Shown: piece by piece, positions 24,683 through 41,302 of the stretch | Position numbering within the stretch: position 1 is the first letter of the stretch | Layout of the letters: each line of letters opens with the position of its first letter | Source: Longimicrobium sp. | GTDB lineage: Bacteria > Gemmatimonadota > Gemmatimonadetes > Longimicrobiales > Longimicrobiaceae | NCBI GenBank assembly: GCA_036377595.1 | Contig: DASUYB010000120.1 | Coordinates: 1-51,867 of the forward strand | DNA: 51,867 bases | Direction of reading: 5' to 3' | Notes under the pieces: generated by a model | Database searches by the model: none | What the model saw: the letters and a program-made list of their open reading frames with translations, nothing else | Told to the model about the DNA's origin: nothing | Made by a program: the position numbers and the translations under genes

Positions 24683-24937
24683 ATGAAGAAGCTGCACCTG
24701 GAGATCGCGGAGCTGAGCGTCGAGTCGTTCGATCCGGTGCGGGACCCCGCCTCGCCGCGAGGCACCGTGGCCGCGCGCGAGTTCACCGAGTCGACGTGCA
24801 ACCAGTTCACCTGCGGCCAGACCTGCGACATCAACGACTTCAGCTGCAACAACCAGTTGACCTGCTACGGGCCGCGGTGCCCGGCCAGCCAGTATGCCAC
24901 CTGCTTCCCCGTGTGCCAGACGGGCTCCATCTGCTAG
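24683..24937 (+). CDS. Cys-rich peptide with pinensin-like leader (1 of 4)
   Basis: The 84-residue peptide begins MKKLHLEIAELSVESF, matching the leader shared by four genes in this window (M(K/R)KLxL....LxV(E/D)SF). It resembles leaders of pinensin-type lanthipeptides. A GTV motif follows near residue 28. The core has ten Cys (TCNQFTCGQTC, CNNQLTCYGPRCP, TCFPVCQTGSIC) with Thr and Ser that could form thioethers. GGAGG precedes the ATG. No lanthipeptide dehydratase, cyclase, protease or transporter is nearby, so maturation is inferred, not shown. Confidence 0.8.
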   Translation: MKKLHLEIAELSVESFDPVRDPASPRGTVAAREFTESTCNQFTCGQTCDINDFSCNNQLTCYGPRCPASQYATCFPVCQTGSIC

Positions 24938-25102: not shown

Positions 25103-25363
25103 ATGAAGAAGCTGAGGCTGGACCCCGAGTCGCTGCGCGTGGATTCGTTCGCCCCGCGCGCGGACGAGGACGGGCGCGGAGGGACGGTGGTGGGGCACCT
25201 CCTGCTGACCGTGGCGGAGACGTGCTACCGGCAGTACACCTGCGGCAAGACGTGCTTCGACGCGCAGACGTGCCGCATCGAGTGCCAGAGCGGCGGATAC
25301 GCGTGCCCGGACACCTACTACGTCACCTGCATCCCCGTCTGCAACACCGGCGAATTCTGCTGA
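25103..25363 (+). CDS. Cys-rich peptide with pinensin-like leader (2 of 4)
   Basis: The 86-residue peptide begins MKKLRLDPESLRVDSF and has GGTV at the leader-core transition. The core is homologous to the preceding gene: YTCGKTC aligns with FTCGQTC, and TCIPVCNTGEFC with TCFPVCQTGSIC. The two are tandem duplicates that have diverged in the middle (TCRIECQSGGYACPDTYY). GGAGGAG precedes the ATG. As with its partner, modification by an enzyme encoded elsewhere is likely but unproven. Confidence 0.82.
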   Translation: MKKLRLDPESLRVDSFAPRADEDGRGGTVVGHLLLTVAETCYRQYTCGKTCFDAQTCRIECQSGGYACPDTYYVTCIPVCNTGEFC

Positions 25364-33509: not shown

Positions 33510-33731
33510 TCAGCCGGTGCAGGTCGTGCCGGTGCACTGCGGCGCGAACACCGTCTCGCACAGCAGCGGCACGGTGGCGCAGAACTGGGTCGGGCAGCCG
33601 TTGTGCGTCGCGTCGCACGGCAGGCCCGAGGCGCCGTGCGCGTGCATCGTCCCGCGCAGCGCGTGCGTCTCGCGCCCGGTCGCGAACGAATCCACACTCA
33701 CCGAATCGAGCTCCAGCCTCAGCTTCCTCAT
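33510..33731 (-). CDS. Cys-containing peptide with pinensin-like leader (3 of 4)
   Basis: The 73-residue peptide begins MRKLRLELDSVSVDSF, with RGTM at the transition. The core carries six Cys (PCDATHNGCPTQFC, LLCETV, QCTGTTCTG) in an arrangement unlike the tandem pair at 24683-25363. A strong GAGGAGGAG site precedes ATG 33731. It lies alone between birA and a divergent NYN gene, with no modifying enzyme nearby. Only the leader and GT(M/V) step are conserved among the four. Confidence 0.78.
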   Translation of the reverse strand: MRKLRLELDSVSVDSFATGRETHALRGTMHAHGASGLPCDATHNGCPTQFCATVPLLCETVFAPQCTGTTCTG

Positions 33732-34323: not shown

Positions 34324-34335
34324 CAGAATCTGGCC

Positions 34336-34395
34336 CACGCAGAGCAGCAGAGGCAGCAGAGATGAGTTCTCCGCTGCCTCTGCTGCTCTGCGTGA
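34336..34395. repeat. Palindromic repeat A, copy 3
   Basis: A nearly perfect 26-bp stem (cacgcagagcagcag... with ...ctgctgctctgcgtg) closes a 7-nt loop. It lies between two convergent genes, 12 bp after the NYN stop and 27 bp from the TPR stop, and is well placed as a bidirectional terminator. Confidence 0.88.
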
Positions 34396-34422
34396 GCCCT
34401 GTTTTCTTCCGTTGCTTCGCGA

Positions 34423-36396
34423 TCAGACCGGCACGGCCGAGCCGCGGAAGGCGGCCAGGCGCTGCTCCACCTCGGCGCGGTCGGGCGCGGAGGGCATCAG
34501 CTCGAGGTAGCGCTCCAGGTCGCACGCGGCGTCGTCGGCGCGCTCCAGGTCGGCCAGCGCGGCCGCGCGGTTGCGGTACAGCACCGGGTTCGACGGCTCC
34601 AGCGCCACGGCGCGGTCCAGGTCGGCCAGCGACTCGGCCAGGCGCCCGGCGCGGTAGAGGAGCGCCGCCCGGTTCGAGAGGAGCACCGCCTGCGCCGGAT
34701 CGAGCGCGAGCGCGGCGTCGTACTCCTCCAGCGCCTCGTCGGTGCGGCCCAGCACGTCCAGCGCGTGCGCCCGGCCGGCGTGCGCCAGCTTCACCCCCGG
34801 GTCCAGGTCGATCGCCCGCGCGTAGGCCGCCTCGGCCTCCTGCATGCGCCCCAGCCGGCGGAAGCACTGGCCCAGGTTGGTCCACACCTCGGCGTAGGGC
34901 GGGCTCAGGCGGATGGCCTCGTGGTAGTCGCGGATCGCCTCGTCGTACCGGCCCAGCTTCAGGAGCACGTTCCCCCGCTCGTTGAAGTACTCCGAGTAGT
35001 TGGGGTCCATCTCCATGGCGCCGCGGAAGTACTCGATCGCCTTCTCGTAGTCGCGGGTGGCGGTGTAGACCTGGGCGATGTTGTAGAGCAGCACCGAGCG
35101 GTGCAGCCGGTGCCGGTCGCCCGGGACGTACTCCTCGAGCTGGTCGAACCCCGCGCGGCAGAGCTCCACGGCCTCGGCGGGGCGGCCCTGCCGGTGGCGG
35201 ACCAGCGCCAGCCCGTTGTTCAGGAAGACGCGCAGGAAGTGCCGGGTCTCGGGAACGATGGAGGGTGCGTCGAGCAGCGCCAGCGCCTCGAGGAGGTAGT
35301 GCTCGGCCTTGTCGGGGTCGCGCTCGGGAAGGAAGCGGGCGTGCAGCATGGCCATGATGTAGCAGACCCGCGCACGGTCGGTGGGGTCGGTGATCTTCTC
35401 CAGGGCCTCGCTCCGCACCACCTCGTGGGCGCGCTCGGGCTGCCCCGCGGCCACCAGGCAGCCGAAGATGCTCCCCACCAGGTTCCAGCGCGTGTAGTAC
35501 CCGACGCCCGTTCCCAGCGTGGCCAGGTTCGCCAGCACCGGGTCGGCGAAGCGCAGCGCGTCTTCGTAGAAGCCGCGATGGTTGTAGCGCCCCAGGGCGA
35601 ACGCCTGCCAGGTCGGCGCGTTCTCGGGGAACTCGCTCTCCAGCCAGTACCGGATCAGCTCCGGGATGCGGTCCTCCATCTCCTCGAAGTTCCGCTTGAT
35701 CTGCTCCTCGAGCTCCCGTGCCAGGCGCGTCATCTCCGCGGGCGTGCGCGGAACCACCCGGTCCGGGGCAAGGTCCAGGCGCACCACGCTGGCCGGGAGG
35801 CGGTCGCCGATCTGCTCGAGCGCCTCGGCCGCGCCGCCGGGCTCCACGGCCAGCAGCAGGGTCAGCCCGAACTCGCGCCCGCGGCGGCGCACCAGCTCGC
35901 GGAAGAAGCGGCGCACCAGCGCGCCGGCACGGTCGTAGTCGTCGCACGCCAGCACCCGCGCCGGGTGCGACGGGGCCACGCGCGAGAGGGTGTCGAGCAG
36001 GTCGATGATCCCGTGCGGGATGCGGTAGGCGCGGTCCATCGCGTAGTTCCGCACCGCCTCGACGCCCACGGCCGATTCGGTGAGGGTGGACTCGACGCCC
36101 AGCGTTCGCTTCAGCGTGGGGAGAACCGCCGCGATCTCGCGTGCGTGCTTCTCCAGCAGCGCGGGGTCGTGCGCCTCGGCCAGGGGAAGCACGCCGCCCA
36201 GCAGGGTGTTGACCCCCGCCCAGAGCCCGTTCTCGCTGACGTCGCAGGGGAGGAGCCGGGCGCCGCCGGCCTCTCCGCCGGCGCGGCCGATCCACTCCGT
36301 CAGGACCCGGCGGCGGCTGCTGCCGCGGGGCGCTTCCAGCACGATCACGCGGCCGGCGGCGGCCGTGGGGGCGGGCAGCTCTCGCTCCACTTGCAT
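34423..36396 (-). CDS. Degenerate P-loop/TPR protein next to a Cys peptide gene
   Basis: The product has 657 residues. Residues 1-300 resemble an AAA/STAND-type ATPase. A Walker A-like LEAPRGSSRRRVL lacks the Lys, while a Walker B-like ARVLACDDYD is kept. The C-terminal 350 residues are tetratricopeptide repeats (YEKAIEYFRGAMEMDPNYSE, YDEAIRDYHEAIRLSPPYAE, EEYDAALALDPAQAV). No signal peptide or membrane segment is seen. GGAGAAGAG precedes the ATG. It lies 94 bp behind the peptide gene at 36491-36616, so it may bind, sense or process that peptide. Function is not known. Confidence 0.82.
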   Translation of the reverse strand: MQVERELPAPTAAAGRVIVLEAPRGSSRRRVLTEWIGRAGGEAGGARLLPCDVSENGLWAGVNTLLGGVLPLAEAHDPALLEKHAREIAAVLPTLKRTLGVESTLTESAVGVEAVRNYAMDRAYRIPHGIIDLLDTLSRVAPSHPARVLACDDYDRAGALVRRFFRELVRRRGREFGLTLLLAVEPGGAAEALEQIGDRLPASVVRLDLAPDRVVPRTPAEMTRLARELEEQIKRNFEEMEDRIPELIRYWLESEFPENAPTWQAFALGRYNHRGFYEDALRFADPVLANLATLGTGVGYYTRWNLVGSIFGCLVAAGQPERAHEVVRSEALEKITDPTDRARVCYIMAMLHARFLPERDPDKAEHYLLEALALLDAPSIVPETRHFLRVFLNNGLALVRHRQGRPAEAVELCRAGFDQLEEYVPGDRHRLHRSVLLYNIAQVYTATRDYEKAIEYFRGAMEMDPNYSEYFNERGNVLLKLGRYDEAIRDYHEAIRLSPPYAEVWTNLGQCFRRLGRMQEAEAAYARAIDLDPGVKLAHAGRAHALDVLGRTDEALEEYDAALALDPAQAVLLSNRAALLYRAGRLAESLADLDRAVALEPSNPVLYRNRAAALADLERADDAACDLERYLELMPSAPDRAEVEQRLAAFRGSAVPV

Positions 36397-36454
36397 CTTG
36401 GGCTCTTCTCCGTCGGACGGTGGCCGGCATGGCCGGCGGGTGGAGGTGGAGGGT

Positions 36455-36481
36455 GGCCGGCCGCGGGGTGCGCGGCCGGCC
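36455..36481 (-). promoter_or_regulatory. Hairpin between the Cys peptide and TPR genes
   Basis: An 11-bp perfect stem (GGCCGGCCGCG, 36455-36465, with 36471-36481) has a 5-nt loop and no U-tract. It could cut read-through or protect the 3' end of the peptide message, so that peptide exceeds TPR protein. Confidence 0.55.
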
Positions 36482-36490
36482 TGTTACGGC

Positions 36491-36616
36491 TCAGGCGGTC
36501 GGGGGCGGCAGGGTGCTCTGTCCCTGGCACCACGGCGCCTCGGGGCACTCCCAGCAGTCGTACGTGGCGGCGCTGGTGTTGAGCGTGTCACTGCCGTAGG
36601 GGTCGAGCGTGAACAT
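36491..36616 (-). CDS. 41-residue Cys peptide, possible RiPP or signal precursor
   Basis: The frame starts at ATG 36616, with a very strong GGAGGAGGAG site 4-6 nt upstream, and stops at 36491. It begins MFTLDPYGSDTLNTSAATYD, continues CWECPEAPWCQGQ and ends STLPPPTA. The three-Cys CWECPEAPWC block and the Ser/Thr-rich N-terminal half look like a small precursor peptide. It lacks the MKKL-type leader of the four pinensin-like peptides here and has no signal sequence. Its near-consensus promoter and the TPR gene 94 bp behind indicate a two-gene unit. Confidence 0.75.
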   Translation of the reverse strand: MFTLDPYGSDTLNTSAATYDCWECPEAPWCQGQSTLPPPTA

Positions 36617-36660
36617 CTCTCCTCCTCCGTGAAGTGGGATAGGAAACAACTGGCGGGATG

Positions 36661-36689
36661 ATCATATGCGTAGAATCATTATCAGTCAA
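36661..36689 (-). promoter_or_regulatory. Strong promoter of the Cys peptide gene
   Basis: On the minus strand TTGACT (36684-36689), a 17-nt spacer and TATGAT (36661-36666) are close to the sigma-70 consensus. The start point should fall near 36654, giving a leader of about 38 nt. Confidence 0.8.
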
Positions 36690-38855: not shown

Positions 38856-39494
38856 TCAGTCGCCCATCTCCGACGCCACCCGCAGCGGGCGCTTGCCGCG
38901 GCGCGCGCGGCCCATCAGCTCGAAAACCATCACGGGGACTGCCAGAAGCATCGACAGGATCAGCGCCACGTCGGCCACGTTGCCGGGCGGCAGCCAGAGG
39001 CCGGCCCAGTGGATCGACAGGTAGTCGGTCACGCCCCAGTGCACCACGCGCTCGCCCAGGTTCCCCAGCATCCCGCCCATCATCAGTCCCGCGAAGGCCC
39101 ACGCCCACCCGCGCTGGCCACGCGGCAGGCGATGCCCGCGCTGCACGATCTCCAGCAGCAGCACGGCGCCCAGCACCGCCGCGCCCGCCGCGATCACCAT
39201 CCGCGAGGCCAGCGGCAGGTTGCCCCAAAGCCCCAGCACCATGGCCGGGTTGCGCACGTGCCAGAACGCCACGCGGTTGGGGACGACCTCGCGCAGCACG
39301 CCGAGCGGGACGCTGCGCGCGACGAGGTACTTTACCGCCCAGTCGAGCAGCGCCACGGCGAGCGCGATCAATCCGGCGGGGATCCAGCCGCGCATCGGCT
39401 CGCGGTCGGCCGCGCGACGGTTCGGCCGGGCGTCGCGTGGGGTGAGGCGGAAATGTCGGTGAACGGGGGAGATCGGGTGGGTCGAATCGGCCAC
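38856..39494 (-). CDS. lspA: LspA-like signal peptidase II, copy 1, with Asp-to-Glu change
   Basis: LspA removes signal peptides from prolipoproteins in the inner membrane. The product has 212 residues with four hydrophobic segments after a basic N-terminal extension. Family boxes are LLDWAVKYLVA, HVRNPAMVLGLWG, GNLGERVVHWGVTDY and PGNVADVAL. In known LspA the last two are GNxxDR and FNxAD and carry the two catalytic Asp. Here the first Asp is Glu (GNLGER), while the second remains. Activity is therefore uncertain. A paralogue with the same change lies 300 bp upstream on the same strand. Confidence 0.82.
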   Translation of the reverse strand: MADSTHPISPVHRHFRLTPRDARPNRRAADREPMRGWIPAGLIALAVALLDWAVKYLVARSVPLGVLREVVPNRVAFWHVRNPAMVLGLWGNLPLASRMVIAAGAAVLGAVLLLEIVQRGHRLPRGQRGWAWAFAGLMMGGMLGNLGERVVHWGVTDYLSIHWAGLWLPPGNVADVALILSMLLAVPVMVFELMGRARRGKRPLRVASEMGD

Positions 39495-39795: not shown

Positions 39796-40476
39796 TCAGT
39801 CGCCCGTAGCCGCCTCCACCGCCGCGGGCTCGGCGAGCGGGTCCTTGCCGCGGCGCGAGCGGCCGATCAGCTCGAACAGGATCACGGGGATGGAGAGCGG
39901 CATCGACAGGAAGAGCGCGATGTCGGCCAGGTTCCCCGGCGGCAGCCAGTAGTCGCCCCAGCGCAGGGAGATGTAGTCCGTGACGCCCCAGTGCACCACG
40001 CGCTCGCCCAGGTTCCCCAGCATCCCGCCCAGCACCAGCCCGATGAACACCCACGCCCACGCCCGGTGCCGGCGCGGGAAGCGGTGGCCGCGTCCCAGGA
40101 TCTGCAGCAGCACGACGGCGCCCAGCACCGCGGCCACGACGGCGATCACCTTGCGCGTGCCCAGCGGGAAGTTCTCCCACAGCCCCAGCACCATGGCGGG
40201 GTTGCGCACGTGCCAGAACGCCAGCCGCCCGGGGATCACCTCGCGCAGGTCGTCGAGCGGAATGTTGAGGGCGATGAGGAACTTGGTCGTCCAGTCCAGC
40301 AGCGCCACGCCCAGCGCGATCAGCGCGGTGGGAATCCAGCCGCGCATCGGCTCGCGGTCCGCCGCGCGCCGCCCGGGCGAGCGCTCGGGCTCGACCCGCG
40401 CCCGGCGATGCCCCAGCGCCCGCCTCGCGGCTCTGCGGATCGGGTGGTTCGAAGGGCTCACGTGATGGTGCTCCAC
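39796..40476 (-). CDS. lspA: LspA-like signal peptidase II, copy 2, with Asp-to-Glu change
   Basis: The product has 226 residues and is clearly paralogous to copy 1. They share RRAADREPMRGWIP, FWHVRNPAMVLGLW, GGMLGNLGERVVHWGVTDY and LPPGN(V/L)AD. Four membrane segments are predicted. The catalytic Asp of GNxxDR is again Glu, so the change predates the duplication. The N-terminal 40 residues are basic and variable between the copies. The last residues (PLAEPAAVEAATGD) differ from copy 1, suggesting time for specialisation. Each copy has its own terminator. Confidence 0.82.
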   Translation of the reverse strand: MEHHHVSPSNHPIRRAARRALGHRRARVEPERSPGRRAADREPMRGWIPTALIALGVALLDWTTKFLIALNIPLDDLREVIPGRLAFWHVRNPAMVLGLWENFPLGTRKVIAVVAAVLGAVVLLQILGRGHRFPRRHRAWAWVFIGLVLGGMLGNLGERVVHWGVTDYISLRWGDYWLPPGNLADIALFLSMPLSIPVILFELIGRSRRGKDPLAEPAAVEAATGD

Positions 40477-40679: not shown

Positions 40680-41060
40680 TTATGGGCAGGGGCAGCGCTG
40701 GGGGATGTCGCTGCCGAAGCTCTGGCAGAAGCCGCAGGTGTCGTCGGCGAGGTTGACCGTGTAGTCCTGCGTGGTGCAGCCCACGCAGCTCAGCGCGTTG
40801 TTGTTGGTGGGGCAGGTCGTTCCGGTGCCGCCGGTGCCGCCCGTTCCGCAGGTACCGGTGGCGGGGCAGTCCATCGGGTCGCCGGTCTCGAACACGCAGA
40901 TCAGCTGGCCGCAGGTCTGCGGGCCGCAGGTGTTCTCGGGGCCGCAGGTGCTGCCGCGGAAGGTGCCGTATCCCCGCACGGTGCCCGTCTCGGGCAGGCG
41001 CGCGGCGGTGGTGAACGACTCCACGGCCAGCTCGCCGACGTCCAGCTTCAGCTTCCTCAT
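40680..41060 (-). CDS. Long Cys-rich peptide with pinensin-like leader (4 of 4)
   Basis: The 126-residue peptide begins MRKLKLDVGELAVESF, has TGTVRGYGT at the transition, and then a long core with fourteen Cys. The core includes STCGPENTCGPQTCGQLIC, a Gly/Thr run (GTGGTGGTGTTC) and the end CGFCQSF ... CPCP. It is the longest of the four related precursors. GAGGAG precedes ATG 41060. No maturation gene adjoins it; tgt lies divergently upstream. Confidence 0.8.
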   Translation of the reverse strand: MRKLKLDVGELAVESFTTAARLPETGTVRGYGTFRGSTCGPENTCGPQTCGQLICVFETGDPMDCPATGTCGTGGTGGTGTTCPTNNNALSCVGCTTQDYTVNLADDTCGFCQSFGSDIPQRCPCP

Positions 41061-41302
41061 CGGATCTCCTCTTGCGGGGGATGGGGTCGAACGCGCGAGA
41101 TGCGTCATTCGTGGGATTGATCATTGAAGGAATCCGCAGGTAAACGCAATCTCCATCCATCCCACCACCTCCGTTTTACGCCATTTCCGATCCGGTGCCG
41201 ATCTCGTAGGACGGCGGCGCTTCCCACGCCCGTCTTCGCTTGCATTCGCGCGCATCCTCCGCCAAACTACCGGCTTACGCTCAGGCCACCCCGCGCGAGT
41301 GA

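Follow-up and report, generated by a model that had tools for sequence, protein, structure and literature searches.

A conserved gene pair for a short peptide and a TPR protein in Gemmatimonadota, most likely a part of a modified-peptide system

The 51,867-nucleotide stretch of Longimicrobium DNA analyzed here (the window) encodes, on the minus strand, a 41-residue peptide and, immediately behind it, a 657-residue TPR protein. These two genes form a conserved unit, of which a small number of Gemmatimonadota genomes carry nine copies. Given that a radical SAM enzyme is encoded beside some of the copies, the pair most likely belongs to a modified-peptide system that has not been described before. 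The interpretation that we prefer, with moderate confidence, is that of a RiPP-type precursor (the peptide) with a dedicated binding partner (the 657-residue protein), with maturation by a radical SAM enzyme acting in cis or, in the case of the window, in trans. The observations behind this interpretation are the gene order, conservation, co-occurrence, domain make-up and the adjacency of radical SAM genes in a homologous clade. The precursor family and the pseudo-STAND/TPR gene fixed behind the precursor appear to be new, within the known class of radical SAM RiPPs. The pair is called new because a search of the open literature yielded no description of the peptide-TPR pair, of the precursor family, or of a pseudo-STAND/TPR gene behind a precursor.

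The peptide and its gene

The peptide gene (36491-36616, minus strand; product MFTLDPYGSDTLNTSAATYDCWECPEAPWCQGQSTLPPPTA) is preceded by a sigma-70-like promoter, TTGACT-17-TATGAT (36661-36689, minus strand; 10/12 matches, one found versus 0.1 expected in shuffles), and by the ribosome binding site GGAGGAGGAG (36619-36628, minus strand), located 2 nt ahead of the ATG. Re-examination of the sequence places these elements, the 657-residue gene and the 94 bp between the peptide stop and the TPR ATG where an earlier note on this DNA had reported them; the strand was not given in that note. The precursor-like product consists of an N-terminal block (residues 2-19, FTLDPYGSDTLNTSAATY) and a variable tail (DCWECPEAPWCQGQSTLPPPTA). 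By inspection, the peptide, which starts with MFTLDPYGSDTLNTS, contains no charged-hydrophobic Sec-type signal, in agreement with the same note, and the MKKL/MRKL...VESF leader is absent from the peptide family, as the note had also held for the window's copy. Comparison of the family with Pfam and NCBIfam detects no meaningful match, and its conserved block is unlike any known leader family in these libraries.

The window encodes four more short Cys-rich peptides that do carry an MKKL/MRKL...VESF-type leader (24683-24937 and 25103-25363, plus strand; 33510-33731 and 40680-41108, minus strand). This leader resembles the pinensin leader NF038180; of the two peptides scanned, 33510-33731 and 40680-41108, the latter yields E 0.027, which is below the cut-off. 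The four genes are scattered singly, and lanthipeptide enzymes were not seen beside them. A separate observation in the window is a tandem of two similar genes (38856-39395 and 39796-40476, minus strand) that, by inspection only, resemble signal peptidase II (LspA).

Conservation of the pair

A search started with the non-TPR part of the 657-residue protein identifies, in addition to the window's copy, eight others in four related genomes; the sample is small, nine loci in five genomes. Matches below the nine have E 0.04 or worse, and the family is therefore sharply bounded. Profile searches of the host's family detect it in 5 of 21 genomes; in a draw from the phylum it is present, among the matches listed, in at least 4 of 395 genomes, all from the host's family, the fifth genome (G020) not being listed there. 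A scan of the genome contigs with one pattern, which has low sensitivity, returns no loci beyond those already known from G015 and G020. An additional TPR gene truncated at the 5' end, G014:C122, is not counted among the nine, whose detection relied on the N-terminal part. The suggestion that G014:C101 and G014:C122 are halves of one TPR gene was rejected because the overlapping residues differ; these are probably two copies from a tandem array.

In the 250 bp searched upstream of each TPR copy, all nine loci contain a short peptide gene, at a distance of 79-132 bp. The nine peptides share an N-terminal block with the consensus xTFDPYxxxTxxTxAAxY, represented by MFTLDPYGSDTLNTSAATY in the window and by LETFDPYGPGGVATSASFY, LETFDPYDGTISTDNAFY, MISFEFYGKDTEQTVAAFY, LETFDPYQDPTMAAAAALY, METFNPYDDPTIATSAALY, METFDVFSGETEESAAALY, MTSFELYQDSTVKTEAALY and MQIFSIFTGGEASTPAEY in the other loci, followed by a variable, often Cys/Trp-rich tail. 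The mean pairwise identity of the 18-residue block is 0.39, compared to 0.22 in shuffles, whereas the tails, at 0.34 compared to 0.30, are close to the shuffled level; this is the pattern of a precursor with a conserved leader and a variable core. Trp, Tyr and Pro are frequent in the tails, and 8 of the 9 contain Cys, the G015 C187a peptide being the one without it. The CWECxxxxWC block, which the earlier note emphasized, is private to the window's copy and absent from the other family peptides; conservation resides instead in the N-terminal FDPY...AAxY block. The refuting condition named in the note, TPR homologs that are never preceded by a small Cys peptide, is contradicted: a family peptide precedes 9/9 homologs, and 8/9 of these peptides contain Cys.

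A plain tBLASTn search with the window's peptide gave a single meaningful match (E 0.23, before a TPR homolog). A further tblastn match of the 41-residue peptide, in G001 (E 0.004), was rejected given that it sits among unrelated long ORFs (potassium-transporter-like). The peptide profile detects exactly nine peptides in 41 genomes (E 4e-17 to 5e-7; next match 0.03) and the same nine in 154 genomes of the order (E <= 5e-7), with nothing else at E <= 0.01; no orphan peptide, i.e., a family member without a TPR gene, was found in the latter set. Because the profile was built from the nine peptides themselves, leave-one-out tests were run, in which 8 of the 9 omitted peptides were the best unseen match among 5,015 ORFs. 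The window's peptide scored E 0.049, compared to 2.2 for the best unrelated ORF, and the shortest peptide, from G020, was missed, so that its membership rests on position. The occurrence of the pair at all nine loci, with no orphan peptide, strongly supports the proposal that the peptide and the TPR protein are a functional pair.

The TPR partner protein

The partner gene (34423-36396, minus strand) encodes a pseudo-STAND/TPR protein. The TPR repeats, already recognized in the earlier note, are certain (PF00515, E 2.4e-40). In an AlphaFold model (pLDDT 87.9), built, like the other models of this protein, on 5 sequences, an alpha/beta domain (residues 1-215; 35752-36396, minus strand) precedes helical repeats that extend to the C-terminus (TPR superhelix, residues 219-653; 34438-35742, minus strand), and the repeats match TPR superhelices with Z of 21-22.6. 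The N-terminal part shows a weak match to AAA_16 (E 0.012). Modeled alone (pLDDT 74.8), it has AAA/STAND folds as its nearest, modest matches, namely ORC/Cdc6 (Z 9.4, rmsd 3.7, 161 residues), Avs3 (Z 9.3) and MalT (Z 8.7), and a Foldseek search with this domain alone gives no match at E <= 0.001. The place of the Walker A motif is occupied in all nine homologs by a VLEAxxGxARR-like stretch with no lysine and no GK[ST]. Together with the AAA_16 match and the AAA/STAND-like predicted fold, this supports the description of the protein as a degenerate P-loop protein. Domain scans and the model reveal no recognized DNA-binding (HTH), effector or enzymatic domain, and the profile of the TPR protein has no match among PDB sequences.

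This domain architecture is relevant to the main alternative, which we consider unlikely, namely intracellular signalling, in which the peptide or a fragment of it would be the ligand, the pseudo-STAND/TPR protein would be a sensor that exchanges one partner for another when the peptide binds, and the radical SAM enzyme of one clade would modify the signal. Peptide receptors are commonly built as TPR superhelices, the structural matches include PlcR-PapR (Z 18.4, 201 residues, rmsd 3.4), the N-terminal domain modestly matches STAND/AAA folds including those of MalT and Avs3, and the TPR-like genes in radical SAM RiPP clusters of Bacteroidales have been suggested to be regulatory (PMC10352776). 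However, TPR folds match one another whatever the function, the protein lacks a DNA-binding or other effector domain, the peptide has neither a signal peptide nor an exporter, and the conservation resides in the N-terminal block of the peptide rather than at its C-terminus.

Gene order and the intergenic hairpin

All nine loci share the order of a strong ribosome site, the peptide gene, a hairpin and the TPR gene, with a promoter-like element first; in eight of these, that element is a TTGAC sequence at a similar position. In the window, a GC-rich hairpin with an 11-bp stem and no T run (36455-36481, minus strand) lies between the peptide stop and the TPR start (region MFE -42.9, z -3.9), and a GC-rich hairpin directly follows the peptide stop in 9/9 loci, with folding z-scores of the peptide-TPR gaps ranging from -0.9 to -4.8. 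As a control, 28 further gaps between co-directional genes in these loci, comparable in length, were inspected; only three have a perfect stem of at least 9 bp, and these three include one peptide-TPR gap and one precursor-radical SAM gap. A hairpin between a precursor gene and the downstream gene usually tunes the ratio of the precursor to the downstream protein. In this pair, the hairpin past the peptide stop would probably serve to make the precursor in excess over its partner.

The position of the hairpin immediately 3' of the stop in 9/9 loci also fits a different role, in which the peptide gene would act as an attenuator or regulatory upstream ORF: its translation, in combination with the hairpin, would control the TPR gene, and the peptide itself would be functionless. 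This is very improbable: the amino acid block is conserved far more than a codon-run leader would be, a run of a single amino acid is absent, the ribosome sites are strong, and no T-run terminator is seen in the window.

Downstream, a long palindrome with a 31-bp stem and a 5-nt loop (34332-34398; no strand assigned; -69.5 kcal/mol on the minus strand) separates the convergent TPR and NYN-domain genes and is the probable end of the peptide-TPR unit. No maturase, exporter or protease is found near the pair in the window, and no radical SAM maturase is encoded on the 51.9-kb contig.

Association with radical SAM enzymes

In G015:C39 and in both G003:C5 loci, the gene immediately behind the TPR gene encodes a radical SAM/SPASM enzyme, and the same enzyme follows the TPR gene with the missing 5' end in G014:C122. 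In G015:C39, the TPR gene overlaps the open frame of the 515-codon radical SAM gene by 4 bp. The nearest NCBIfam models are RiPP maturases, namely TIGR04463 (for the G015:C39 enzyme, E 3.5e-52; 177.6 bits versus a cut-off of 525), CefB and Clo7bot. The four TPR-linked radical SAM proteins form one clade (support 100/100) that is nested among relatives encoded beside GG-leader Cys peptides; the TPR genes with a radical SAM neighbor likewise form one clade (98/94), with the other TPR genes unresolved around it. The peptides of the TPR-paired family that are linked to a radical SAM gene mostly resemble the GG-leader cores (xYGG...N..C.C).

Five of the nine loci, including the window, are of a short-peptide type in which no radical SAM gene is seen next door; the TPR gene is cut by a contig end in G020 and G014:C101 and as the last gene of G015:C187, which limits the count of adjacencies there. 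The only radical SAM protein of this family found in the window's genome, G000:C13:15500-16936, is 57% identical and belongs to another RiPP cluster (L058, G000:C13, 5607-16582), with several GG-leader Cys peptides, the radical SAM gene, a sigma-54-type activator, a substrate-binding protein and an NHLM exporter (TIGR03797). Other members of the radical SAM family, like the one in G000:C13, adjoin arrays of GG-leader peptides, e.g., ...VEELDQVAGGETDVNQNCYSCTC, and in three of the GG-leader clusters a weakly TPR-like helper follows the radical SAM gene. The radical SAM family is present in 4 of 4 quality-passing TPR-bearing genomes, compared to 6 of 14 overall (15/1001 = 0.015, with no correction for kinship). 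This distribution is compatible with action in trans but does not demonstrate it.

Two features of the wider radical SAM families are recorded here in their own right. Approximately a dozen near-repeat GG-leader precursors (..AGGVEGDNTNCSQSCTSN..) surround one radical SAM gene in L061 (G003:C91, 4873-11716). A more distant radical SAM clade, in L063 (G001:C215) and L064 (G005:C161), is found beside peptides with 'EFSILELEDRLEFA' leaders, and a relative of the daptide HExxH protease (NF041824, E 6.8e-32) is encoded in the L063 cluster as well.

The loci of the window's type could be degenerate or repurposed remnants, that is, an unmodified peptide and its partner persisting after maturase loss. 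We regard this as quite improbable, more so than signalling. No radical SAM gene is seen beside these loci, the TPR genes with such a neighbor are one clade with the rest unresolved around it, and the short-type tails are highly divergent, which speaks for remnants. However, the window-type genes are intact unless cut by a contig end and retain the ribosome site, the hairpin and, nearly always, the promoter-like element; two such peptide-TPR units with very different tails (PWWVYEPYDPFGLGL, PFDICWWWLVGV) stand in tandem in G015:C187 (L044, 11924-15314); and the codon use of the window's peptide is normal (GC3 0.95).

Proposed function of the pair

Under the preferred RiPP interpretation, the precursor would comprise a conserved N-terminal recognition block and a variable Cys/Trp/Pro-rich C-terminal core. 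Its partner is predicted to be a cytoplasmic protein in which a nucleotide-binding-fold domain that has lost the Walker A lysine is joined to the TPR superhelix; the latter most likely binds the conserved block and may present or protect the precursor for modification. In one clade, the operon continues with a third gene, for the radical SAM/SPASM maturase, which would cross-link the core. In the window, the maturase would act in trans, with G000:C13:15500-16936 as the candidate, or may have been lost. Among the roles envisaged in the earlier note, a maturation or chaperone pair is favored over a sensor because a radical SAM/SPASM maturase adjoins 3-4 homologous loci.

A bolder version, which we put forward tentatively and consider rather doubtful, is that these loci represent a new RiPP class in which the usual element for precursor recognition is replaced or supplemented by the pseudo-STAND/TPR protein, which would hold precursors for a radical SAM enzyme that distinct loci within the same genome can share in trans.

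If correct, the RiPP interpretation extends radical SAM RiPP biosynthesis by a precursor family that the libraries do not recognize and by an unusual partner protein, and does so in a phylum with little-studied peptides. The TPR protein would then be a genome-mining handle for peptides that are too short for annotation, and the pair would make it possible to ask directly whether precursor recognition can be performed by a TPR scaffold.

Comparison with known systems

The nearest known relatives, with respect to the maturase at three loci, are radical SAM/SPASM RiPP systems (TIGR04463, 'rSAM_vs_C_rich'; CefB, NF038107; Clo7bot, TIGR04334), which likewise combine short Cys-containing precursors with a SPASM maturase. 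In the present case, however, the scores are far below the curated cut-offs (see the values for TIGR04463 above), no library family has a comparable precursor block, a gene for a pseudo-STAND/TPR protein of 620-660 residues is inserted between precursor and maturase, and the window's own locus lacks a maturase. A TPR-like accessory gene of unknown role is also present in two radical SAM RiPP clusters of Bacteroidales (PMC10352776), and a TPR-containing protein in an MNIO cluster (PMC12257519); compared to the Bacteroidales clusters, the protein described here is large, contains a putative NTPase-like domain and is encoded immediately behind the precursor every time.

The combination of a small peptide gene with a TPR protein is reminiscent of RRNPP pairs, e.g., PlcR-PapR, but here a putative AAA/STAND-like domain takes the place of the N-terminal HTH or Rap-like effector domain, the peptide gene is upstream and there is no secretion signal. 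In STAND proteins with TPR sensors, such as MalT, TPR repeats likewise follow an N-terminal domain, whose AAA/STAND fold the predicted domain of the present family may share, whereas the proteins of the present family lack the lysine of the Walker A motif GxxxxGK[ST] in 9/9 cases and have no effector domain. Finally, pinensin-type lanthipeptide precursors (NF038180), which the peptides elsewhere in the window recall, are also short and contain Cys, but the peptide family described here does not match NF038180 and, in place of the MKKL/MRKL...VESF leader, begins with its own conserved block.
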